This document shows, one piece after another, positions 51,305-63,008 of a stretch of 64,000 bases of DNA. The notes under the pieces are model-generated. The model had not been told where the DNA came from and made no database searches. It saw only the letters and a list, made by a program, of their open reading frames with translations. Numbering within the stretch: position 1 is the stretch's first letter; each line of letters begins with the position of its first letter. This DNA is from Spirochaetota bacterium (GTDB taxonomy: Bacteria > Spirochaetota > Spirochaetia > Treponematales > Treponemataceae), in NCBI GenBank assembly GCA_016285185.1, contig JAEEQG010000096.1, forward strand, positions 1 to 64,000, written 5' to 3'. A program made the translations under genes and the position numbers.

Positions 51305-52423
51305 TTATAAATCGGTGAGAATATTTGTCTGGTTCTCATACTTGAATTTGTCTGCTACTTCCTTGAAAAGCTCTACAAGTTTAGGATCAAATTGTGTTCC
51401 GCTTGATTCAATAATGATTTTTACAGCTTCGTCATGAGTGAAAGCCTTTTTGTAGGGTCTGTCCGAAACTAGTGCATCATATACATCAGCTATGGCCATT
51501 ACTCTTCCAGGTAGAGGAATATCTTCTCCTTTCAGTTTATTGGGATAGCCTTGTCCGTCCCATCGTTCGTGGTGATGTTGTGCCAGTATTTCCGCATATT
51601 TTAGGAATTCATCACCATATATTGAAACAGAAATTTTTCGTATAATTTTAGCGCCGAATGTGGTATGTTGCATCATTATTTCCATTTCTTCCGGAGTAAG
51701 CTTTTCCTGTTTTTTCAGTATTGTATCAGAAATTGCAATTTTACCTACATCATGAAGCTGGGCTGACTGTATAAGTAATGGGATTTTCCAGTATGAGATT
51801 TCTTCTTTGTAAACACCTTTTTCTTTCATGGCTTTAAGCATAACTGAAAGATAATGTTGTGTACGTTCTATGTGTCCACCTGTATTTACATCTCTGAATT
51901 CAACAAGGTTTGCAACCGTACTTAGTATCGAATATTGTAATTGAAGGATTGTTTCTGTTTTTTCTTTTACGATTCTGTTAAGATTTTCGTTGAAAAACTG
52001 AAGTTCTTTTTGTTGTTCAATTAATGCGAGATGGTGTTCTATGCGTTTAAGAAGAATAGGCGGAGAGAAAGGCTTGTAAATGTAGTCAATTGCACCGAGT
52101 GTAAGTCCTTTAATTTCGCTTTCAACATCATCTTTTGCCGTAAGAAAGATTACAGGTATATTTTGGGTTTCTTCTTTTCGCTTTAGTTCTTTTATTATCT
52201 CGAAACCACTGACTCCAGGCATTTCTATATCAAGTAATAAAAGATCCGGTATGTTTTTTTCAAGCACATTAAGCAATTCAAGACCGGATGTTAAAAGGGT
52301 AAGTTTATAATGTTCTCTCAGAACACCTGCGGCAACTTTAAGATTTGTAACTTCATCATCTACTATAAAAACTTGTTTTTTACTTTCTTTATTAAATATA
52401 TCATTATTAAATACTTCATTCAT
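51305..52423 (-). CDS. Response regulator with HD-GYP output (RpfG type)
   Basis: A 372-residue protein. The receiver domain (about 15-135) has VFIVDDEVTNLKVA, the phospho-acceptor Asp in LLLLDIEMPGVSGFE and the Lys in VIFLTAKDD. A helical linker follows, then HD-GYP (about 165-350) with QLHDVGKIAISD, HHHERWDGQGYPNKLKGEDI and MAIDVYDAL-type sequence (VMAIADVYDALVSDR). It should degrade c-di-GMP when phosphorylated. No kinase gene is adjacent. The -10 TATAAT is only 6 bases before the ATG, so the message may be leaderless. Confidence 0.92.
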   Translation of the reverse strand: MNEVFNNDIFNKESKKQVFIVDDEVTNLKVAAGVLREHYKLTLLTSGLELLNVLEKNIPDLLLLDIEMPGVSGFEIIKELKRKEETQNIPVIFLTAKDDVESEIKGLTLGAIDYIYKPFSPPILLKRIEHHLALIEQQKELQFFNENLNRIVKEKTETILQLQYSILSTVANLVEFRDVNTGGHIERTQHYLSVMLKAMKEKGVYKEEISYWKIPLLIQSAQLHDVGKIAISDTILKKQEKLTPEEMEIMMQHTTFGAKIIRKISVSIYGDEFLKYAEILAQHHHERWDGQGYPNKLKGEDIPLPGRVMAIADVYDALVSDRPYKKAFTHDEAVKIIIESSGTQFDPKLVELFKEVADKFKYENQTNILTDL

Positions 52424-52493: not shown

Positions 52494-53081
52494 TCAGCAA
52501 AAGCGTTGAGGTGGTGATACAACCCAGATAGCTTTAAGTTCCTTATCGCCTTTGTTATAAATAACATGTGGGGTAGAAGCCGAAAAAGATACACTATCAC
52601 CTTCATAAAGTTCATAGGTGTTTGATTCATAGTGCAGTTCTGCTTTTCCTTTCAATATATAACCCATTTCTCTTCCAGGATGTCCGTATGATCCCCTGTG
52701 TGTATTACCGTGTGGTGGAATCGTTATTATATAGGCTTCTAAAGCATGAGCGCCATCTGAAGTAGCTGGTTTAGATATTTCTTCATAAACAACTTCATCT
52801 TCCGAAATTTTTCTTCTGGCTTTTGCTTTTGTAACTCTAACTGTCACTTCCTGTCTGTATCCTTCAAAAAGGTATTCCAGATTTACATCAAGAATATCAG
52901 ACAGTGCTAGCAGTGTTTCTACAGAAGGTGATACTTTGTTTCTTTCAATTTGTGAAACAAGACTTTCACTAATATCCGCTTGTTGTGCGACTTGTTTTAA
53001 TGTATAACCGCGGCGTTCCCGTACTTGGCGAAGCTTTGCTCCGCATCTGAAGATTTCTTTTTTATTTTGCATATATATCAT
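52494..53081 (-). CDS. XRE-cupin transcriptional regulator
   Basis: A 195-residue protein. An XRE helix-turn-helix (about 12-72; GYTLKQVAQQADISESLVSQ) is followed by a cupin_2 barrel (about 110-190; PHGNTHRGSYGHPGREMGYI and YELYEGDSVSFSASTPHVIY). This domain pair is found in regulators such as PuuR and MppR-like proteins, often controlling amine or amino-acid metabolism. The ATG could be at 53081 or 53072. It overlaps the end of the preceding gene, so they are co-transcribed. The ligand is unknown. Confidence 0.87.
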   Translation of the reverse strand: MIYMQNKKEIFRCGAKLRQVRERRGYTLKQVAQQADISESLVSQIERNKVSPSVETLLALSDILDVNLEYLFEGYRQEVTVRVTKAKARRKISEDEVVYEEISKPATSDGAHALEAYIITIPPHGNTHRGSYGHPGREMGYILKGKAELHYESNTYELYEGDSVSFSASTPHVIYNKGDKELKAIWVVSPPQRFC

Positions 53082-54156
53082 TGTGCTGTTTTTCTAGATT
53101 TTTTTCAAGAATAAAACGTGTAAAATGATCTTCAAGTGTCTTATGTGGACCATCAAGATTGAGTCTCGTTCTGGCGCGTGCATTATCGCGGCGTATTGTA
53201 TAACGCAGATAAAAATTGCGGGGATCAAGCTCAACGTCTACTGGAATACGTTCACCGAGAAGTGCATAAACATCTTCACGACTGATTGAGGTACAAGACT
53301 GTTCTTTTATTTTATTCTTAAGGATATTTATCTGTTCATGTGATAAGGAAAATAAGAATTCTTCAAGTGCCTGAGAAATATCCGGATCACTAAGTTTTTC
53401 CTTAATGAATAATGTCCATTGTTCATCAAGCTCAATGGTAAGCAAAAGCAATTCACTTGTTCCAACCATTGTTCCAAAAGCTGGCACAAGTTTGTCCCTT
53501 ACTGTCCATACTGCTTCAAGAACCGGTGCAATATCGGCAACATTCTGGTCACTGCGGTGTTCCCACAAAACAATAAGCGAAACGGCAATCTGTTCTCGTA
53601 TATCCTGTGGAATCTGGGTGTCTTCCAACAGAGAAAGATAAACGTCCTCAGCCATGATTGTGAACATTATTCTGAGTGTCGCAGATCGTAATGCTTCAAG
53701 GTCTTTTGTATGAAAATGCTGTGCCCGTGCTGCTTTTGACATGGAAACAAAAGTATGAAATTTAGCTACAAGAAAACCTTTTCCCAGAATTGCCTTTGAG
53801 GGAAGATGCAACATTCTGTCACCTGTTCTGAATTCCAAAAGTGCGTGTACAAGAGATTCCTGCGTGCGTACTTCCTGTCCTGCAAAAACCTGTCTTTGCA
53901 AAAGAGATGGAAATCGCGCAATTGCAGCGGCAAGGCGTTCCAAATCTGCTATTTGTGCAGTTATATTTTCAAGAGATTGTGGCGAAGAAGTGCGTAATTG
54001 TTCAAAGACCATGTTGACAAGTTCTTTTTCTTTTGTGGATAAAACGACGATATTTGTATTTATATCATCGTTCTTTTTGCTTGAATCGTTATCAAAGAAT
54101 TCATCAATGCTTACCGGAGTAAAAAGTAAATCTTGTTTATCGCCTGATTCTTCCAC
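53062..54156 (-). CDS. Conserved helical protein, function unknown (GTG start)
   Basis: A 364-residue soluble, mainly helical protein; I do not recognise a family. Notable parts are a hydrophobic/charged N-terminal domain, LLEFRTGDRMLHLPSKAILG, QHFHTKDLEALRSATLRIMF, and a C-terminal basic block (RDNARARTRLNLDGPHK). The frame opens at GTG 54154-54156, supported by a strong promoter whose -10 lies 9 bases upstream, and there is no Shine-Dalgarno. The XRE-cupin gene overlaps its end and may regulate with or through it. Confidence 0.72.
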   Translation of the reverse strand: MEESGDKQDLLFTPVSIDEFFDNDSSKKNDDINTNIVVLSTKEKELVNMVFEQLRTSSPQSLENITAQIADLERLAAAIARFPSLLQRQVFAGQEVRTQESLVHALLEFRTGDRMLHLPSKAILGKGFLVAKFHTFVSMSKAARAQHFHTKDLEALRSATLRIMFTIMAEDVYLSLLEDTQIPQDIREQIAVSLIVLWEHRSDQNVADIAPVLEAVWTVRDKLVPAFGTMVGTSELLLLTIELDEQWTLFIKEKLSDPDISQALEEFLFSLSHEQINILKNKIKEQSCTSISREDVYALLGERIPVDVELDPRNFYLRYTIRRDNARARTRLNLDGPHKTLEDHFTRFILEKNLEKQHNDIYAK

Positions 54157-54262: not shown

Positions 54263-55516
54263 TCAGATTCCCGCTTTTGAGACTTCTTCTGCAAGAAATT
54301 TGCGATATCGTTCAGCATCTACCTTGAAGGCAACAATAGGAAGAGAAGGATCTTCCATTGCTTTGTCGACTGCTTGCATTGCTTCTTTTATAAGTCTTAT
54401 ACCTGGAATAAGGCGAAGTGTTCTGCTCGAAAGACCAAAGAAGACTTTTTTGTCCACATCAAATTCTTGTAAAATAGATGTAATTTCGGTATAGAGCTTT
54501 TCGCAAATGTTCAATGAATGTACAAGGTCGCTGTTCTGTAAAATCAGTACGTAGCCGTCTTCTCCAAATTCAAAAATCAAATCTTTAAACGAAAAACATT
54601 TAACCAAAATATCGGATACTTTGCGTGCTGCCGGATGATTATGCGGTAAGTCGAGAATTTTTATATATACAAGCGATATATCCTGTTCGGCGGAAGCTGC
54701 TCTGACAAGTTCAGAATCAAGTCTTGTTTCAAGATAGGATTCCCAACTCAAACCTGTTGTAGGTGAAAAAAGGCCTAATGGATCAATTTGTACAGAGTCA
54801 GATCCTAATACCTGATTTTCTTTTTGAGGGATATCTTGTGTTTTTGTAATTTCAGGTTGTGAAGTTGATTTGAGTTCAACTGAACTCGTTGGAGTTGGTT
54901 CTGGCTGCTCAGAAAAAGCAGTGTCTATATCAATTTCATCAAAAGTATTTGAAGGCGTATTATCGATTTCATGTTGTTTTGAGGTGTCTTTTTTTTCTGC
55001 TTTTGAACAGATGATTAAGAAGATAAAAGCCAGTAATGTTCCTGAAAGAATAATGAAAAAAGCATTTCTTGCAAATTTGAAAACAGTATGAGGAGGAAGC
55101 AGATAAACTGCGGCAGTTACGATTGTATTGATTTTGTCGTTAAGAGGAATATTTGTTGAGCGTACAATCATCGCCGGAGAAGAAACTGCGATTTCAGGAG
55201 TAATTGAATCTGTTGATATATAACGGGATTTTACAGGATATGCAAAATAAGTTGTAGTATCACTTTTTATAGTAAGGGCTGCAATATAATCGTTCTTCTC
55301 TATAATTGGTTGAAGAGAGTTAAGATAGTCTGCAGAAAGGAATTTTGACGAAGCGGCTTTGGAATCCATTTCACGCAAAAGAGCTTTGAACTGTTGTTCG
55401 GCACCTATAGTTCCTGCCTTTATGTCATATATACAGCTGGCTGTAAAATAGCCAAAACCTGCAAGAAATATAAGTATTATTATGATAACAAAGAAAACTA
55501 CGCTTTTATTCGTCAT
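54263..55516 (-). CDS. Membrane protein with degenerate GGDEF domain
   Basis: A 417-residue protein with two membrane helices (about 7-28 and 152-170) enclosing an extracytoplasmic domain, a low-complexity linker (about 175-255) and a C-terminal domain shaped like GGDEF (LETRLDSELVRAASAEQDIS, LVYIKILDL). At the signature place it reads FEFGEDGYVLIL instead of GGDEF, and the usual Asp/Asn catalytic residues are not apparent, so it should not make c-di-GMP; it may bind it or serve as a scaffold. It is the last gene of the DUF115 operon, 3 bases after the second DUF115 gene. Confidence 0.78.
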   Translation of the reverse strand: MTNKSVVFFVIIIILIFLAGFGYFTASCIYDIKAGTIGAEQQFKALLREMDSKAASSKFLSADYLNSLQPIIEKNDYIAALTIKSDTTTYFAYPVKSRYISTDSITPEIAVSSPAMIVRSTNIPLNDKINTIVTAAVYLLPPHTVFKFARNAFFIILSGTLLAFIFLIICSKAEKKDTSKQHEIDNTPSNTFDEIDIDTAFSEQPEPTPTSSVELKSTSQPEITKTQDIPQKENQVLGSDSVQIDPLGLFSPTTGLSWESYLETRLDSELVRAASAEQDISLVYIKILDLPHNHPAARKVSDILVKCFSFKDLIFEFGEDGYVLILQNSDLVHSLNICEKLYTEITSILQEFDVDKKVFFGLSSRTLRLIPGIRLIKEAMQAVDKAMEDPSLPIVAFKVDAERYRKFLAEEVSKAGI

Positions 55517-55519
55517 ATG

Positions 55520-57151
55520 TTACTCCGCATAACGCTTGAAAAAGTCCTGTGCCAAATCAAGAATTATATCAAATGAGTTTTTTGAACTTTGATAATATCC
55601 TTTTTTCTCGCACCAGGCTGCAAAAGGTAAAAGTGCTGTAATTATGTCTGACTGCGGTTTTCCTCTTGCTTCTGAAATACTTTTAAGTATCCAAGTTATA
55701 AAATCGGCAAAATTTGACGGGTTATAAAGAGTTTCTGAAAAAAAATCAAGCTGGTCTTGATTATTGATAGTGTTTTTTCTTGTCGTGAGATTTTGAGGTT
55801 GTAAATCTGCAGAAATTCTTACAATATGTGAGGAAGATTTTTCAAAGGCATTTGTTAGGGCTCTGTTGTATTGTTGTAAGGTTTCGGTAGTTGTTGTACC
55901 ATTCTCAAGGGGAATAAGGGATGTCCTGAACATTAGTGCCGAAAAGGCTGTTTCCTGTGTTCCTATTCTACTTGAAGAGTTATTGTATGTTTCATCAAGA
56001 TATGAACCTTTGCAATATGGTTTTCCTCTTGAGTAAGCAAAATCTGCCCCGAACAGCTCAATTTTATTAAAGCCGGCTTTTATTGCAAAATCCAATGCAG
56101 CTCCTGTAACTGTCCCTGAAGTTGAGTCTATAAACGGGAAAAGGGTTGTATTGTTGTTTGCTTTGAAAAAATCAGCAGCCAGTTTGCATAAAGGATGACT
56201 TCCTGAAGCAAAACGCAAGGTTCCGTTGGTATTTACAACAGCTTTACTTATCGAAGGATTAGCGCATAAATCAAGAATATAGAGAGTTTGGGGTAATATG
56301 TTCGTTTTTAAGAAGTGTCGGTATGAGATATTCTGGCCATCAACACTGACTACTGCATCAGGTATTATATCGTTTAAAAAAAGAACTTGTGATGCAGTGT
56401 CTGTTGCGATTATGTAGAAATTGCTTCGCTTGTTTTTTAGAATTTGTATTGTTGAATCAAGAGTTGGTCCTGCTGCGATTATAGCTGCTGTTTTGTGATT
56501 TGGAATTGTAAGCAAACTGTTTTTTTTCTGCTTTGAAAAAATGTAAAGATTTTCAAGAATATTACGTTGCCAGATTTTACCGAAGTGAGCCTGTACAGAA
56601 TAGTCCGCGCTTATTCTTTTTAGAGAGGACTGGATTTGCTGATTAATTGTTTTTTCTGTTTCAATATTGTTTTCTGCCCAGACTCTGTTAGCTGAATAGT
56701 TAAAAACACCATTAATTTGAGGAATGTAAGTAGAAAGAATTGTTTGTTCCAATGAATCTGATGTACAAATGTCAAAATTGGGTTTTGACAATATTTGCGA
56801 AAAATCATATTGAGAAAAAAGAAACTTGATAGAATCTGCATTTTTTTCAACTACTAATACATGGTTTTCTGAATCTTCAAGCAAAGTCTGAAAATGATAT
56901 CCGTTGCCAAGTCCTCCGACCAGATTAAACGCTCTGGTGAAATCTGCCGGTTGAATCCTGGGAGCAGGATTATACAATGAGTACATTGGTTTTGAATTTG
57001 CAAACACTACAACACTCATACCATTTTTTGCCGTCATTGTACCTGTATAGACAGATTTTTGTGTTCCTGCATCAAGAATTTGTTTTGTGAGATTCTGATT
57101 TTTTGTGGCTAAAATAGATATGTTCTTTTCGAAAAAATTATTATCACTCAT
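55520..57151 (-). CDS. DUF115 (Maf-type, motility accessory) protein 1
   Basis: A 543-residue protein. The central DUF115/MAF_flag10 domain shows NHKTAAIIAAGPTLDSTIQI, FYIIATDTASQVLFLNDIIP, DAVVSVDGQNISYRHFL and FIDSTSGTVTGAALDFAIKA followed by KIELFGADFAYSRGKPYC. DUF115 proteins include Campylobacter and Helicobacter Maf, glycosyltransferases that attach nonulosonic acids to flagellins. A second DUF115 gene overlaps its start (ATGA). Together they suggest protein glycosylation, likely of flagellar filament proteins, but no flagellin gene is in this window. Confidence 0.82.
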   Translation of the reverse strand: MSDNNFFEKNISILATKNQNLTKQILDAGTQKSVYTGTMTAKNGMSVVVFANSKPMYSLYNPAPRIQPADFTRAFNLVGGLGNGYHFQTLLEDSENHVLVVEKNADSIKFLFSQYDFSQILSKPNFDICTSDSLEQTILSTYIPQINGVFNYSANRVWAENNIETEKTINQQIQSSLKRISADYSVQAHFGKIWQRNILENLYIFSKQKKNSLLTIPNHKTAAIIAAGPTLDSTIQILKNKRSNFYIIATDTASQVLFLNDIIPDAVVSVDGQNISYRHFLKTNILPQTLYILDLCANPSISKAVVNTNGTLRFASGSHPLCKLAADFFKANNNTTLFPFIDSTSGTVTGAALDFAIKAGFNKIELFGADFAYSRGKPYCKGSYLDETYNNSSSRIGTQETAFSALMFRTSLIPLENGTTTTETLQQYNRALTNAFEKSSSHIVRISADLQPQNLTTRKNTINNQDQLDFFSETLYNPSNFADFITWILKSISEARGKPQSDIITALLPFAAWCEKKGYYQSSKNSFDIILDLAQDFFKRYAE

Positions 57152-58650
57152 AATATGTCTTCAAAATCCAGTATTATTTTATCATTTATTGGACCTTTTG
57201 TTTTTTCAAGAATTAGATATTCCCCTAATGATACTGTTTTAATCCATAAAAGTAATTCTTTGTTCAAGTCTGTAATAGGAGTTAGATTGTTTTTTGCTTT
57301 GATAAGTTCTGATTTTATTTGCAAAAGCATAGAAGAAATCTTTTCACGATTTGTTGCAATTAAATTATTCAACGGTACTGAAATAGGCCTGGTCTTTTCT
57401 GGGCCATTTTTCATTTGTTCTTCAAAAACTGTATGTGGAATTTCTTTTATATTACCAAAGTGTTCTAAAAGAGGATTATTTTTGTGATAAACACGTACAA
57501 AACGTCTTTCAAATTCAGAATTCCTTGATGAAAACCAGTTTTTATATACAGAAAGGGATTCAGAATTGAAACTTTGAATAGCGGTTCTAGTTGATAAAGG
57601 TATAAGCCTGTAGTCCTTTGAGGTTGCTCCCAATTCAAGATTGTTCGGCTGTGCGTGCTGAAATCCTTTTGAAGTTGTAAGATCCAATCCTACAGCATAT
57701 ACAAATTTATCTGTCAGTGAAAAAGCGAGCTCTGTTGCTGTTCCCGCTACAGTACCGTTTCTAACTGCTTTTATGCAAGGAATATTGCAATAATCAAGAA
57801 GAATTGTTTCTACACCATCACCATAGCAAAGTGGAATTATTTGAGAAGTTTTAAGCAGATCGGCAGAAATTGCACTTTCTGGTGACAAAAAAAGTGGTAT
57901 CGGCGGTATGTTAAAGAATTTCAGAACATCAAGATGTTTTTTTGCCCAATACCCACCGTCTGTTGAAATGGCTGCATCAGGAATAATATTATAATGTAGT
58001 AGAGGATACAAAGATGAAGACACTGCAATAAGATAGAATTGAGTTCTGAGTTGTTTTATTACAGGCAACATAGGCGAAAGAGATGGTCCTGAGGCTGTAA
58101 TTAATATTGGTAAAGTCCTATCACATGATATCTGATTTATATGCGATATGTAATTTAGAAATCGAATGGAATTTTTTGTCCAGCGTTTGTTAAAATACAT
58201 TCTTGTAGCAAGAACATTTTTTGACGTTGTTAAAAATTGTTTTATTTCATACCAGGTTTTTTTGTACTCTTCTGGAAATGCTGATTCGCTTGGTTTCCAG
58301 GACAAAAAAAGGACAGAAGATGCATCTTCTTCTCCTATGTAGGAGAATAATTGGTTCTGTACTGAGTCCTTTGAATAAATAATTTTGTCCCATGGTGATT
58401 CATCATTATCAAATTGATTTGTATAATGAATACAGATAAATTTTGAATATGCAAATCTTTGCTTCAAAAACGGCAGGCAGTATGATAGGGCAGGACCTGT
58501 TACAGTAATGTATTTAGGGGTGAAATCAATTGAAATGGCTTGCACAAATCGTTCTGCTTCTTTTTCGGGATTGTATGCAGAATGTAAAAGTATATTATTA
58601 TATGAACAAATTTTAAGGTTGTTTTTGGACTGCAGATAAGTTAGGTTCAA
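57148..58650 (-). CDS. DUF115 (Maf-type, motility accessory) protein 2
   Basis: A 500-residue paralogue of its neighbour. It keeps the landmarks PILITASGPSLSPMLPVIKQ, FYLIAVSSSLYPLLHYNIIP, DAAISTDGGYWAKKHLDVLK and NGTVAGTATELAFSLTDKFV followed by YAVGLDLTTSKGFQHAQP. The two share plan but little identity, so they are an old duplication. The start is TTG (58648-58650) overlapping the upstream stop (TTGA), showing coupling. Likely a glycosyltransferase for surface or flagellar proteins; the donor sugar cannot be read from sequence. Confidence 0.8.
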   Translation of the reverse strand: MNLTYLQSKNNLKICSYNNILLHSAYNPEKEAERFVQAISIDFTPKYITVTGPALSYCLPFLKQRFAYSKFICIHYTNQFDNDESPWDKIIYSKDSVQNQLFSYIGEEDASSVLFLSWKPSESAFPEEYKKTWYEIKQFLTTSKNVLATRMYFNKRWTKNSIRFLNYISHINQISCDRTLPILITASGPSLSPMLPVIKQLRTQFYLIAVSSSLYPLLHYNIIPDAAISTDGGYWAKKHLDVLKFFNIPPIPLFLSPESAISADLLKTSQIIPLCYGDGVETILLDYCNIPCIKAVRNGTVAGTATELAFSLTDKFVYAVGLDLTTSKGFQHAQPNNLELGATSKDYRLIPLSTRTAIQSFNSESLSVYKNWFSSRNSEFERRFVRVYHKNNPLLEHFGNIKEIPHTVFEEQMKNGPEKTRPISVPLNNLIATNREKISSMLLQIKSELIKAKNNLTPITDLNKELLLWIKTVSLGEYLILEKTKGPINDKIILDFEDIL

Positions 58651-59585
58651 AATTGATTTTCCGTGTTCTGTAAGTGTAGAAAGCTTAAAAGTTCTTCCGG
58701 TTCATACGTTGTTCCTTCAGTAGAAAAAACGATAAACTTTTCCTCTCCATTTGAAAGATAATCGGATAAATAGGTCATCATGTCTTTTGCAAATTTCTCT
58801 ATGCAAATACCGTTTTGCGAAAAAAGTACTAATTTAAGGTTTTCGGAATCATATTCAATACATATGCTGTTTTCGGGAAGATGATCTTTTATAAGACGGC
58901 TTAGAATAGTTATAATTTGAACAATGTCGGGATTCGGGTTTGAATTTCGTAAGAACTGTATCAAATTTGAAAAAGAAATATTAACCATTGTTCCGGATAA
59001 ATCTGCGTTAGTATTTTCTTGAATGAGATCGGAAGAAAACTGATTTATTATTTCCGGTTTTTGTGTATAAAGGTGAAACCGAAGTATATTTTCGATAGCT
59101 GGCAATAATTCTGAAAAGTTTTCATCTATAAAGTCCAGTAAGTTGTCTGTTTCATTCTGATTTGTGTTTTCCTGTGATACAAGTATTATACAGTTTGAAA
59201 TGCTGTTCAGTGTTATAAATTTAATGTGAAGCAGAGAAATATGTTCTCTGTCTTTAATAGAAAAAAGCTGAAGGAATGAATCCAATTGTTGGTTTTCCTG
59301 TGTGTACCATGTATTTTCTTCAGGTACAATGCCAAGTGTACCAAACCAAAAGTCTGCACTGGAATCACCCTGAGAAAGGGTTTGAGCATCAAAACCATGG
59401 TTAAAGAACATTGTGTAGTGCTTGTCAACAGGAACATATAGCCCAAAATGCAAAACACCAAACTTATTTAAAATTCGGTGCAATTGTTGAAAAGAAAAAG
59501 GTATTGTATTTTTGGAGTTTTGGAAAGATACAAACATATTGTTGTATCTTTCCAGTATGTCACTACAGCGTTGTAGCAAACCCAT
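58647..59585 (-). CDS. Unknown protein of the DUF115 operon
   Basis: A 312-residue soluble protein I do not recognise. The middle (about 25-170) has alternating strands and helices reminiscent of a GAF/PAS sensor fold (FGVLHFGLYVPVDKHYTMFF, ISLLHIKFITLNSISNCIIL). Near the C-terminus, ICIEYDSENLKLVLFSQNGI resembles the central strands of a GGDEF-like domain without its motif. It sits between the acidic gene (3 bases) and DUF115 gene 2 (TTGA overlap), so it is a fixed member of the operon. Confidence 0.68.
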   Translation of the reverse strand: MGLLQRCSDILERYNNMFVSFQNSKNTIPFSFQQLHRILNKFGVLHFGLYVPVDKHYTMFFNHGFDAQTLSQGDSSADFWFGTLGIVPEENTWYTQENQQLDSFLQLFSIKDREHISLLHIKFITLNSISNCIILVSQENTNQNETDNLLDFIDENFSELLPAIENILRFHLYTQKPEIINQFSSDLIQENTNADLSGTMVNISFSNLIQFLRNSNPNPDIVQIITILSRLIKDHLPENSICIEYDSENLKLVLFSQNGICIEKFAKDMMTYLSDYLSNGEEKFIVFSTEGTTYEPEELLSFLHLQNTENQF

Positions 59586-59588
59586 AAA

Positions 59589-62294
59589 TCAGGACAGTCC
59601 TAATTCCTTGAAAAGTTTTTTGTATGTCTCAAAGTATTCGGATTTTGCAAACTCTTCAATTTTATCTTCAGGCAGATTTTCCAAAAGTTGATCCATATAA
59701 ATCAATACTGATTTTATTTCGTCTTTCAAATCTGCAGGCATACTATCATGAATCTGATTTGCTTTTTCAAGTACAGAATGAGATCCTTCTGATTCTGGTT
59801 CTGGAGATGCAACTGGTTCTTCAGCTGGAGCTGATTCAGGTTCATTCCATTGATCACTTTCGAAAACCTTCTCTGTAGGTTCATTTGCTTCTGATTCTTC
59901 GTCAAGTTCTTCTGAAGGCAAATCTAATGGAGCTTCAGGAATTAAATCCTGTTCTGTAAAATCGACTGACAAGTCATCAGTTGATTCAGGCATTGAAAAA
60001 TCAACATTTCCTTCATCTGTCGGAATATCATTTGTAACAGATTCAACAGTAGGAACAGGTTCCTCTTCCGGTTCTTCAAGCGAAATATCCTGTGTTTCTT
60101 CTTCTATTTCAAAGTTATCTGGGATATCAAGACCGCCTTTTTCAGGAATAACAGAAGACTCATCAGTTGGTGCTGATTCTGATTCAAGGTAATCAATATT
60201 GTCTGAAGAAAGCGAATCCGTTGTAACAGGAACTTCTTCACCTACTATATCGTCTTCTGCAGGTGGTTCAAGAATATCGTCAACCTTTGGAATTGATATA
60301 TCGTCTTCGACTGTTGCATCGAGGTCATTTGAAATTTCAATATCATCAAGTTCAGGTTCTTCAAGTTTTTCATCAAAATTGATGTCCGTATCGATCCCTA
60401 CAGCTTCTGATTCTTCTGTAACAGGTTCTTCATCAAATGATATTTCATCTTCTTGAGCAACTTCTGTAACAGAACCAGGCAGTTCTGAATCCTGAGGTTC
60501 TTCCTGAGTATTGTCAACATATTCTTCTGTAAAATCAGCACTGTTTAGAATATTACTCAACTCATCACCAGAGAGGGCGATTGTATCATCTTCTGCATTA
60601 TCATCAAAAAAACCGGTTGAGCCGGATTCTGCCACGGGTGCTGCTTCCGGTTCTTCAGCAGGCTCAACATTAAGTTCGATATTTTCCTCAGCTGTTTCTT
60701 CAGAAACAATCTGTTCGTCAGTAGAAATATCTTCTGTTAAAGATTCCGGCATTGCCTTAGAATTCTTGAACGCCGAAAACTCTGCTTTTAGAGAGGCCAG
60801 CTCGGAACGTAACTGGCTAAGTTCAGAAGAAATCTCTTTTAAGACCGAACTGGAATCAGATGAAGAAGCCACTTCTCCGGGATCAGAAAATTCATTCAGT
60901 TTTTCATCTTCCTGTGGTGTTTGTGTTATGTCTTCAAAATTCATGGGCTCCTCCTCATCAAGCTCAATACTATTGTACTCTGATTTTTTTGTAATATCAA
61001 GTTTTTTATTATCATTTAATGCATTAAAATCAGAATTTATTTCCTCTTTTACTGTAAAATTATCAGTTTCAGGCTCTGTAAAGGAATTTTCAGAGCTGTA
61101 ACTGTCGGGTATTAACTCTTCTTGAACCGGAATAACAAATTCTATCGTGTCATTAGACGGCTCATCAGGAGTTTGAGAATCATTAATTATTTCCATATCA
61201 TCGATTTCTGGTATGGTTGTATCAACACCGTCAAAATCATCAAGAGTAGGAATCCCTTTTTCCGTATCGGCAGGAAGTTCAGTTTCTGCTATACTCCCGG
61301 TTATATCCGTTGTATCCTCCACTTCTGCAAGAAGAGAATCAACATCAAAATCTTCTGTAGAAGAAGATGATGTTTCTATATTTGATACAGAATCATTTTT
61401 CTTTGTATAGCGTGCAATCTGCTGTTTCCTTTCTTCCTCGGAAGTAAAGAGAGGAATGGATTCATTCACGTCAAGTTCATTATCGGTGTCTGACGAGGCG
61501 ATTGTTCGTGAACTAGTGACATCGTCTTCTTTAACCGTAATGTTATAATCAACAATCTTTAGAATTTTATGTTCATCTTTATTGACTTCTGAGAGGGGAG
61601 CTTCCTGTGTATCTGAGGAAAGAAAATCATCAAATTCATTTACGATGTCAAAAGTTGTAGTTTCATGCGATTTTGTTTCGGAAACTGATGGAATATCTGA
61701 CGGAGTATTGAAGAAATCATCAAAATTGTCTTCAACTCCATTGGCATCAGTTATTGTAATGTCTGCAAAAGCTTCTGTCTCATCGATAACATGTTCGTAG
61801 GATTCTGATTGTATTCCTTCAACATAACTGTCGTCAAATGTAAGCTCGATTTCAACAGGTGCATCAAATAGGTATTCGTTCTTGTCTTCTTTTTTGGGAC
61901 TGTTAGAAAAATCACTGTTCAGTTCGCTTAAAAAGTCATCGGTAATATCATCACCGCCACCTACAACAAAATCCGAAACAGGTAAATCGAACTGTGCTGT
62001 AACGTCTTCTCCTCCACCAGAAAGAAAATTATCAAGATCAATTTCTTCTTCTTCTGAAAATGAAACTTCCGTTGGTTGTTGAACAGGAGAAGGCTTAGTT
62101 TCTTTTTTTTCTATAGCAGGTTTTGGAGTCGGTAATGTAAAATCTTCAAACTCATATTCGGAAAAATTCTGAATATCAATATCATTTTCGTCGTAAGCAG
62201 CTTCAACTTTTTTTGCAAGAGAAGGTGAATCCGGTAGGATTAACGGATTTTCAGAATCATCAATATTAAAATCTGTTACGTCTTCAAAAGTCAA
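59589..62294 (-). CDS. Very acidic 901-residue protein, first gene of the DUF115 operon
   Basis: A protein dominated by Asp, Glu, Ser and Thr with hardly any Arg or Cys. No signal peptide or membrane helix is seen. Short motifs recur irregularly (DDFLS, EEPE, DDIS, FDDFF). A coiled coil near the middle (VLKEISSELSQLRSELASLK) and an ordered C-terminus (about 845-901; KANQIHDSMPADLKDEIKSV, LPEDKIEEFAKSEYFETYKK) are the only structured parts. It looks like a long disordered scaffold or counter-ion protein. The start is TTG at 62294 behind AAAGGA. Its first residues (MTFEDVTDFNI) match short acidic repeats inside. Confidence 0.75.
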   Translation of the reverse strand: MTFEDVTDFNIDDSENPLILPDSPSLAKKVEAAYDENDIDIQNFSEYEFEDFTLPTPKPAIEKKETKPSPVQQPTEVSFSEEEEIDLDNFLSGGGEDVTAQFDLPVSDFVVGGGDDITDDFLSELNSDFSNSPKKEDKNEYLFDAPVEIELTFDDSYVEGIQSESYEHVIDETEAFADITITDANGVEDNFDDFFNTPSDIPSVSETKSHETTTFDIVNEFDDFLSSDTQEAPLSEVNKDEHKILKIVDYNITVKEDDVTSSRTIASSDTDNELDVNESIPLFTSEEERKQQIARYTKKNDSVSNIETSSSSTEDFDVDSLLAEVEDTTDITGSIAETELPADTEKGIPTLDDFDGVDTTIPEIDDMEIINDSQTPDEPSNDTIEFVIPVQEELIPDSYSSENSFTEPETDNFTVKEEINSDFNALNDNKKLDITKKSEYNSIELDEEEPMNFEDITQTPQEDEKLNEFSDPGEVASSSDSSSVLKEISSELSQLRSELASLKAEFSAFKNSKAMPESLTEDISTDEQIVSEETAEENIELNVEPAEEPEAAPVAESGSTGFFDDNAEDDTIALSGDELSNILNSADFTEEYVDNTQEEPQDSELPGSVTEVAQEDEISFDEEPVTEESEAVGIDTDINFDEKLEEPELDDIEISNDLDATVEDDISIPKVDDILEPPAEDDIVGEEVPVTTDSLSSDNIDYLESESAPTDESSVIPEKGGLDIPDNFEIEEETQDISLEEPEEEPVPTVESVTNDIPTDEGNVDFSMPESTDDLSVDFTEQDLIPEAPLDLPSEELDEESEANEPTEKVFESDQWNEPESAPAEEPVASPEPESEGSHSVLEKANQIHDSMPADLKDEIKSVLIYMDQLLENLPEDKIEEFAKSEYFETYKKLFKELGLS

Positions 62295-62519: not shown

Positions 62520-63008
62520 ATGACACAGAATAAAGTTTTGTTATCGGCTTTAATGGGAACATTGATGTATGTTTTAGTTTCTGCCTTTTTTGGTCCTGAC
62601 GGACTTTGGGCTGCTTCACAGCTTGAAGAACAGAAGCAGGTCATCTCTGCTAATTTTCAAAAAATCAAACAAATTAATGAAAACCTGTCTACAGAATTAA
62701 ATTCTCTCATAGTTGACCCGGAAGTAATTGCATCCTATGCAAAAAAGCTGGGATATATTGAAGAAAATGAAAAAATAATCAGGCTTCGAGGACTGAATCC
62801 TCCTATGGATTATATTCCTGAAACAGGTACTCCTGTTCTTATAAAAGAAGTAGAATATGTTCCAGAGTGGGTATGCAAAACATCTGGTATTGTTATGTTT
62901 CTTTTTTCTCTTTTATTAGTTTCTATGCATAGTTTAAGGGAAAAACTTCACAAACGTCAACTTGAGGAAATTGTAATTGATAATCCGGAAGAACAGCCCG
63001 AAATCTGA
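62520..63008 (+). CDS. FtsB/DivIC-like septum formation initiator protein
   Basis: A 162-residue protein. An N-terminal membrane helix (about 6-30), a coiled coil (about 35-66; LEEQKQVISANFQKIKQINE) and the conserved segment VIASYAKKLGYIEENEKIIR match the FtsB/DivIC family, which joins FtsL and FtsQ in the divisome. Unlike typical FtsB it has a second hydrophobic helix (about 121-141; TSGIVMFLFSLLLVSMHS). The downstream Sua5 gene starts inside its end. No strong ribosome site precedes the ATG. Confidence 0.75.
   Translation: MTQNKVLLSALMGTLMYVLVSAFFGPDGLWAASQLEEQKQVISANFQKIKQINENLSTELNSLIVDPEVIASYAKKLGYIEENEKIIRLRGLNPPMDYIPETGTPVLIKEVEYVPEWVCKTSGIVMFLFSLLLVSMHSLREKLHKRQLEEIVIDNPEEQPEI

Follow-up and report, generated by a model that had tools for sequence, protein, structure and literature searches.

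We analyzed 64,000 nucleotides of a Treponemataceae spirochete genome (positions 1 to 64,000 of contig JAEEQG010000096.1, assembly GCA_016285185.1; hereafter the window) and identified in it a five-gene operon, here called E-D-C-B-A in order from the promoter side, which is conserved across the treponemes and is probably part of the machinery that decorates and assembles spirochete flagella. The operon encodes a long acidic protein (E), two predicted Maf-type glycosyltransferases (C and B) and two GGDEF-fold proteins that lack the GG(D/E)EF motif (D and A). We somewhat favor the reading that these proteins make up a cytoplasmic flagellin-glycosylation and filament-assembly unit in which E would serve as the scaffold.

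Maf-dependent glycosylation of flagellin is already known, and what appears to be new is the five-gene form and the E-D core; in the literature searched, the coverage of which was incomplete, we found neither a description of these nor a paper naming a transferase for spirochete flagellin. Spirochetes, T. pallidum and T. denticola among them, carry glycosylated flagellins, and T. denticola cannot form filaments without the glycan; the operon offers two concrete candidates for the transferase, together with three uncharacterized partners retained even in the 1.14-Mb genome of T. pallidum. Additionally, the analysis exposes a nearly phylum-wide two-gene core, E-D, and a natural gene-loss series (flagellated species with long E, flagellum-less species with short E and Borrelia-like species with no E) makes the role of E testable.

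The operon and its five products

All five genes lie on the minus strand, their open reading frames were confirmed, and successive genes are spaced by +3 (E/D), -4 (D/C), -4 (C/B) and +3 (B/A) nucleotides, in agreement with a preliminary description made from the sequence alone, which had treated the five co-strand genes, with their gaps of 3 bases or 4-base overlaps, as one unit. The source genome (2.77 Mb, 173 contigs) has an estimated contamination of 8.15%, which does not affect the finding because the operon and its neighbors share one contig. The features of the operon are as follows.

59589..62294, minus strand: gene E, 901 residues, TTG start; acidic, mostly disordered protein, ortholog of T. 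pallidum TP0179 (open reading frame, composition, mapping of tp0179 primers on locus L035)
59592..59732, minus strand: near-invariant C-terminal domain of E, ~47 residues, EIKSVLIYMDQLLENLPEDKIEEFAKSEYFETYKKLFKELGLS (alignment of 36 sequences)
60522..60614, minus strand: internal short motif of E, GFFDDNAEDDTIALSGDELSNILNSADFTEE, of the form D/E-x-IxLS/TxxELxxIL
60753..60854, minus strand: predicted coiled coil of E, SVLKEISSELSQLRSELASLKAEFSAFKN, conserved in the E alignment and present in short E proteins too
58647..59585, minus strand: gene D, 312 residues, predicted cytosolic; N-terminal MGLL motif, GAF and degenerate GGDEF (AlphaFold2, Foldseek, Pfam matches of distant orthologs)
59166..59492, minus strand: GAF-like domain of D, residues 32-140
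58674..59003, minus strand: degenerate GGDEF domain of D, residues 195-304; no GGDEF motif, PENS at the inhibitory-site position
57148..58650, minus strand: gene C, 500 residues, TTG start; predicted Maf-type glycosyltransferase, Maf2 (PF01973, PseD model, alignment)
57667..58149, minus strand: MptE-like/Maf central domain of C
55520..57151, minus strand: gene B, 543 residues; predicted Maf-type glycosyltransferase, Maf1 (PF01973, FlagModPseD, 5MU5 match)
56027..56563, minus strand: MptE-like/Maf central domain of B
54263..55516, minus strand: gene A, 417-residue membrane protein with degenerate GGDEF (topology predicted from sequence and model)
54326..54769, minus strand: degenerate GGDEF domain of A; FEFGEDGY replaces RYGGDEF, and the inhibitory-site R is replaced

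Both B and C match PF01973 above its curated cut-off of 34.6 bits (111.9 bits and an E-value of 3.7e-32 for B, 66.9 bits and 2.5e-18 for C), and both match PseD models (FlagModPseD at 7.3e-16 for B). In comparisons with the solved M. magneticum Maf structure 5MU5, the profile of B gave an E-value of 1.2e-13 and that of C 8.5e-5, while the N-terminal Maf domain PF20157 reached 16.8 bits in B, below the cut-off of 23.5, and was not among the listed matches of C. The conserved motifs of the family are kept by both proteins, and those of the C alignment are RNGTVSGTA, STDGG and GLDL. These matches indicate that B and C are Maf-type glycosyltransferases, and with their different conserved motifs the two are deeply separate paralogs. 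In common with known Maf enzymes (Aeromonas Maf1, Campylobacter PseD/PseE, Clostridium CbMaf and the M. magneticum Maf of 5MU5; PF01973/PF20157), they have the Maf domain at their center, GxGPS, PD and DL motifs and possibly a Maf-like N-terminal region, their genome carries NeuB and a cytidine monophosphate (CMP)-sugar transferase, and their presence tracks flagellin; unlike those enzymes, they are tandem divergent paralogs that share an operon with D, A and E and do not adjoin flagellin genes, and their donor and acceptor are putative. The source genome has two further Maf genes outside the operon, G000:C130 (locus L055), which lies behind a penicillin-binding protein gene, and G000:C37 (locus L056), behind a PPIC-type prolyl isomerase gene; neither adjoins flagellin genes.

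Protein A is predicted to consist of a helix (residues 3-56) containing the first transmembrane segment (TM1), a small alpha/beta periplasmic domain, a second transmembrane segment (TM2, about 150-170), a disordered linker (178-245) and a degenerate GGDEF domain. Its Pfam GGDEF match is sub-threshold (17.1 bits; cut-off 23.8), and GEDGY stands where GGDEF is expected; for the fold, the profile match to 5EUH gave an E-value of 2.1e-7 and the model a TM-score of 0.80 against 5EUH by target length. The GG[DE]EF motif is kept in 0 of 127 relatives of A, and the arginine of the inhibitory-site RxxD is mostly lysine (KxxD) in the relatives and serine (SxxD) in the window. For protein D, hhalign comparisons with A or with distant D proteins gave low probability, and its identification therefore rests on the fold and on Pfam matches of distant orthologs. 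The AlphaFold2 model (predicted local distance difference test, pLDDT, 83.7) ranked GAF-GGDEF proteins first in Foldseek, the best being DcsBis 4ZMU (E-value 4.7e-6), followed by phytochrome cyclases and PelD 4ETZ, and distant D orthologs have Pfam matches to both GAF and GGDEF. D carries neither a GGDEF motif nor a conserved RxxD, and its N-terminal MGLL is often repeated as GLLxKA. Since the GG(D/E)EF motif is absent from both proteins, A and D are very probably non-catalytic, and judged by their residues at these sites canonical binding of cyclic di-GMP (c-di-GMP) by either is unlikely. PelD of Pseudomonas, a known c-di-GMP receptor with a GAF domain and a degenerate GGDEF domain, has the same domain order as D and likewise a dead GGDEF; unlike PelD, D has no RxxD and no transmembrane helices, starts with MGLL and has E, not exopolysaccharide genes, as its partner. 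A pel operon context was not found for D, the neighborhood of which consists of E, Maf, FliS or atp genes.

Of the residues of E in the window, 29% are D/E and 5% K/R, giving a net charge of about -220. Across the E family, proteins of 300-1650 residues are about 30% acidic and 4% basic, most of their length cannot be aligned, and the C-terminus is near-invariant, with 52% mean identity over the last ~50 residues in the 36 sequences aligned. Of 327 high-quality Spirochaetota genomes, 223 have a single copy of the C-terminal domain. E itself matched nothing in Pfam or NCBIfam above cut-off, the C-terminal domain had no match above noise among PDB sequences, and the source genome has neither a second copy nor another protein with E motifs; E may be the first representative of a new family. 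A relaxed IxLSxxELxxIL motif is present in 93 of the 120 long E proteins that are intact and in none of the 18 short ones from flagellum-less f3 genomes. The loss of both this motif and YGVWVK in these 18 genomes suggested that the two are strictly linked to Maf, which is ruled out by a flagellum-less f10 genome with YGVWIK, by some f3 proteins with a SPEELxxLL variant and by the E of the window itself, which is without YGVWVK. Polar scaffolds of the PopZ type are acidic, disordered chains rich in proline, glutamate and aspartate with a conserved C-terminal segment. E, too, combines an acidic disordered chain, rich in the same three residues, with a conserved, probably helical, C-terminal segment; unlike PopZ, it is several times longer and has other motifs, sequence homology to PopZ was not found in the Pfam and NCBIfam comparisons, and the likeness is one of architecture.

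The preliminary description had named two divergent DUF115/Maf-type paralogs, a degenerate GGDEF membrane protein (GEDGY) and a 901-residue acidic protein, all of which are confirmed by the matches, fold and composition given above. It had also suspected a second degenerate domain in the 312-residue protein and proposed a structure prediction for it; the model of D bears this out, with a GAF domain in addition to the degenerate GGDEF fold.

Conservation in treponemes and across the phylum

B was found in every one of the 106 Treponemataceae genomes of good quality and in 144 of 145 overall, a few of the matches being to a distant Maf paralog only. Of 20 loci read in further genera of Treponemataceae, 17 have all five genes in the same order and on the same strand, an arrangement far beyond chance; L042 (C broken, E moved), L046 (without A) and L052 (without D) deviate from it. 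In L042, which belongs to a single-contig Treponema genome (G063), C is spread over three reading frames and E lies ~730 kb away, with B and A still in place. The flanking genes are variable apart from FtsB and a Sua5-type gene. Across the loci, the distances of the three genes A, B and C are correlated (r 0.73-0.86, exceeding every permutation), as expected for genes inherited together.

The T. pallidum genome (G020) carries the operon at locus L035, beside genes which we take to be tro and tpp15. Because published tp0179 primers (PMC7864442) map to the start of the T. pallidum E gene, E is TP0179; by position, A would be TP0172-0173, B TP0174-0176, C TP0177 and D TP0178, with the gene fusions behind this numbering taken from PMC3265458 and PMC3105029. 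The TP0179 reading frame is closely preceded by a homopolymer of nine bases, poly-C on the sense strand (L035:12678). The tp0179 tract was part of a homopolymer survey in which most tracts vary in length (PMC7864442), and E could therefore be phase-variable in T. pallidum.

Beyond the family, we sampled 19 loci from other families of the order and 11 from the class. In these, E, C and B are neighbors on one strand, E and C are usually separated by a reading frame for D, and in nearly all of them FtsB is divergent to E. Its counterpart in the window is the following gene.

62520..63008, plus strand: FtsB/DivIC-type septum protein (PF04977, 5e-14), divergent neighbor of E, outside the operon

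A adjoins the operon in some families and is separated from it by an opposite-strand gene in others; a putative sixth member between B and A in f5 loci was rejected, the same-strand reading frames being antisense shadows of an opposite-strand gene. Outside the class, D follows E in most families read, and E-D is a nearly phylum-wide two-gene core in Spirochaetota. E-D is accompanied by FliS upstream and FapA downstream in families f35 and f52 and by FliS alone in f45; in f29 the order is E, Maf and then FliS, in f37 and f56 the neighbors of E-D are one unknown gene and then FliM, and in f23 a Maf pair lies beside E-D. This repeated independent placement by flagellar genes ties E-D to flagella more strongly than any other positional evidence. 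Unlike these FliS loci, in which E-D or E-Maf stands directly beside fliS (f29, f35, f45 and f52), the treponeme operon is without fliS. The co-conservation which the preliminary description had proposed to examine is thus seen for all five genes across treponemes, and for E-C-B or E-D beyond the family; its linkage of the five genes stands, and what it overlooked is the E-D core and the survival of E after loss of the flagellum.

This survival is seen in 18 of 19 flagellin-less f3 genomes and in one f10 genome, which encode a short E of 184-268 residues that keeps the coiled coil and the C-terminal domain, with a shrunken acidic chain (20% acidic, 11% basic). In all 19 genomes (L102, L103, L186-L201 and L208) short E is still divergent from FtsB, and D, C, B and A were not found at these loci. 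E was not found in Borrelia-like genomes or in f13, where one genome has a marginal match. The long acidic part of E thus travels with flagella and Mafs, and the core of E has a function independent of them; E has an older, non-flagellar role.

Association with flagellin and proposed function

Flagellin, scored by PF00669, and Maf were compared in 98 genomes, of which 66 carry the two together and 26 lack them, while 6 carry flagellin without Maf and 0 Maf without flagellin, an agreement of 92 of 98 (Fisher p 2e-18, relatedness ignored). Maf is therefore absent from 26 of 26 flagellin-less genomes and present in 66 of 72 genomes with flagellin, and the flagellin-only genomes are four Borrelia-like (f7) genomes and two incomplete assemblies. 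Genes for donor-sugar synthesis follow the same pattern: NeuB and CTP_transf_3 were found in 15 of 15 Maf genomes tested, the source genome and T. pallidum included, and were absent from the one Borrelia-like and the one flagellum-less genome tested. In T. denticola, a 450.2 Da glycan on FlaB is needed for filament assembly and motility (PMC9481697), and PseI (TDE0960) is critical for flagellin (PMC9862357). Taken together, the tracking of flagellin by Maf, the placement of E-D by FliS, FapA and FliM and the co-occurrence of NeuB and the CMP-sugar transferase sustain the link to flagella and glycosylation drawn in the preliminary description.

In the assembly unit that we favor, a nonulosonate-type sugar would be made by the NeuB/PseI-type synthase and the CMP-sugar transferase of the genome, and B and C, as Maf O-glycosyltransferases, would attach it to FlaB flagellins in the cytoplasm. 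This step would precede FliS binding and export, comparable to Aeromonas, in which glycosylation is followed by hand-over to FliS (PMC4065374). With its long, acidic and disordered chain, E may act as the scaffold; its C-terminal domain would probably anchor or oligomerize it, while its short motifs and acidic chain would collect the clients, namely D, both Mafs and flagellin/FliS. D would be a catalytically dead GAF-GGDEF adaptor, and A may tie the assembly to the inner membrane and sense via its periplasmic domain, with its dead GGDEF as a protein-contact module. We infer the action of B and C on FlaB, the scaffold role of E and all of these physical contacts.

Several observations weigh against this assembly unit. 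The correlation of Maf with flagellin rests on few independent losses, given that genomes without flagellin belong to at least three families (an f3 subclade, f13 and f10), and Borrelia-like genomes, which have neither E nor Maf, still make flagella. No flagellin gene adjoins the operon in treponemes, and the Mafs outside the operon could be the flagellin enzymes instead. E-D lies behind atpGDC in f26, f39, f50 and f57 (L212-L215, L222 and L224; AtpG, AtpD and AtpC are Pfam-confirmed in sampled loci, and the rest are assigned by position and sequence similarity). Furthermore, E is not purely flagellar, since it survives in flagellum-less genomes.

B and C might instead glycosylate a target other than FlaB (such as FlaA, a surface protein or a different exported protein of the filament or sheath), with the stand-alone Mafs C130 and C37 acting on flagellins. 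We regard this as rather improbable: in its favor, most treponemes, T. pallidum included, have 3-4 Mafs, and B and C are deeply separate paralogs, whereas Maf presence overall follows flagellin and E stands beside FliS in four other families. In addition, the flagellins of T. pallidum but not its sheath proteins are reportedly glycosylated, going by the title of a 1998 paper by Wyss cited in PMC13144727.

Alternatively, E could be mainly a division or cell-pole organizer, the partner of the divergent FtsB, with the Maf, GAF-GGDEF and membrane proteins as polar clients and flagellar glycosylation as a secondary matter. The divergent arrangement of E and FtsB across the class, the short E alone by FtsB in the 18 f3 and one f10 flagellum-less genomes and the PopZ-like architecture of E speak for such an organizer. 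Outside the class, however, E adjoins FliS, FliM or atpGDC rather than FtsB, it is absent from flagellum-less f13 and from the normally dividing Borrelia-like genomes, and a common promoter region may be all that lies behind the divergent placement, so that we likewise hold a primarily polar or division-related function to be unlikely. As a tentative extension of the favored assembly unit, E may represent a new Spirochaetota-specific family of acidic disordered organizers which, with D as adaptor, assembles into a scaffold or condensate at the (sub)polar base of the flagellum and couples flagellin glycosylation to export, with an older core function at the cell pole or division site in flagellum-less species.

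The switching of glycosylation or filament assembly by c-di-GMP binding to the pseudo-GGDEF protein or proteins, as the preliminary description had it, is very unlikely, for although the operon holds two GGDEF-fold proteins, D resembles PelD and a response-regulator protein with an HD-GYP-like C-terminal region (51305-52423) is encoded nearby, the catalytic motif is missing from A, its 127 relatives and D, the inhibitory-site arginine is usually K (S in the window) in A and replaced by PENS in D, and no other c-di-GMP-binding family was detected among the five operon proteins.

Neighboring genes in the window

Directly downstream of the operon and on the same strand, positions 53062-54156 encode a 364-residue protein that had no Pfam or NCBIfam match above cut-off. 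The response-regulator gene, the C-terminal half of the product of which is HD-GYP-like and which may encode a c-di-GMP phosphodiesterase, lies two genes past the downstream end of the operon, outside the conserved neighborhood.

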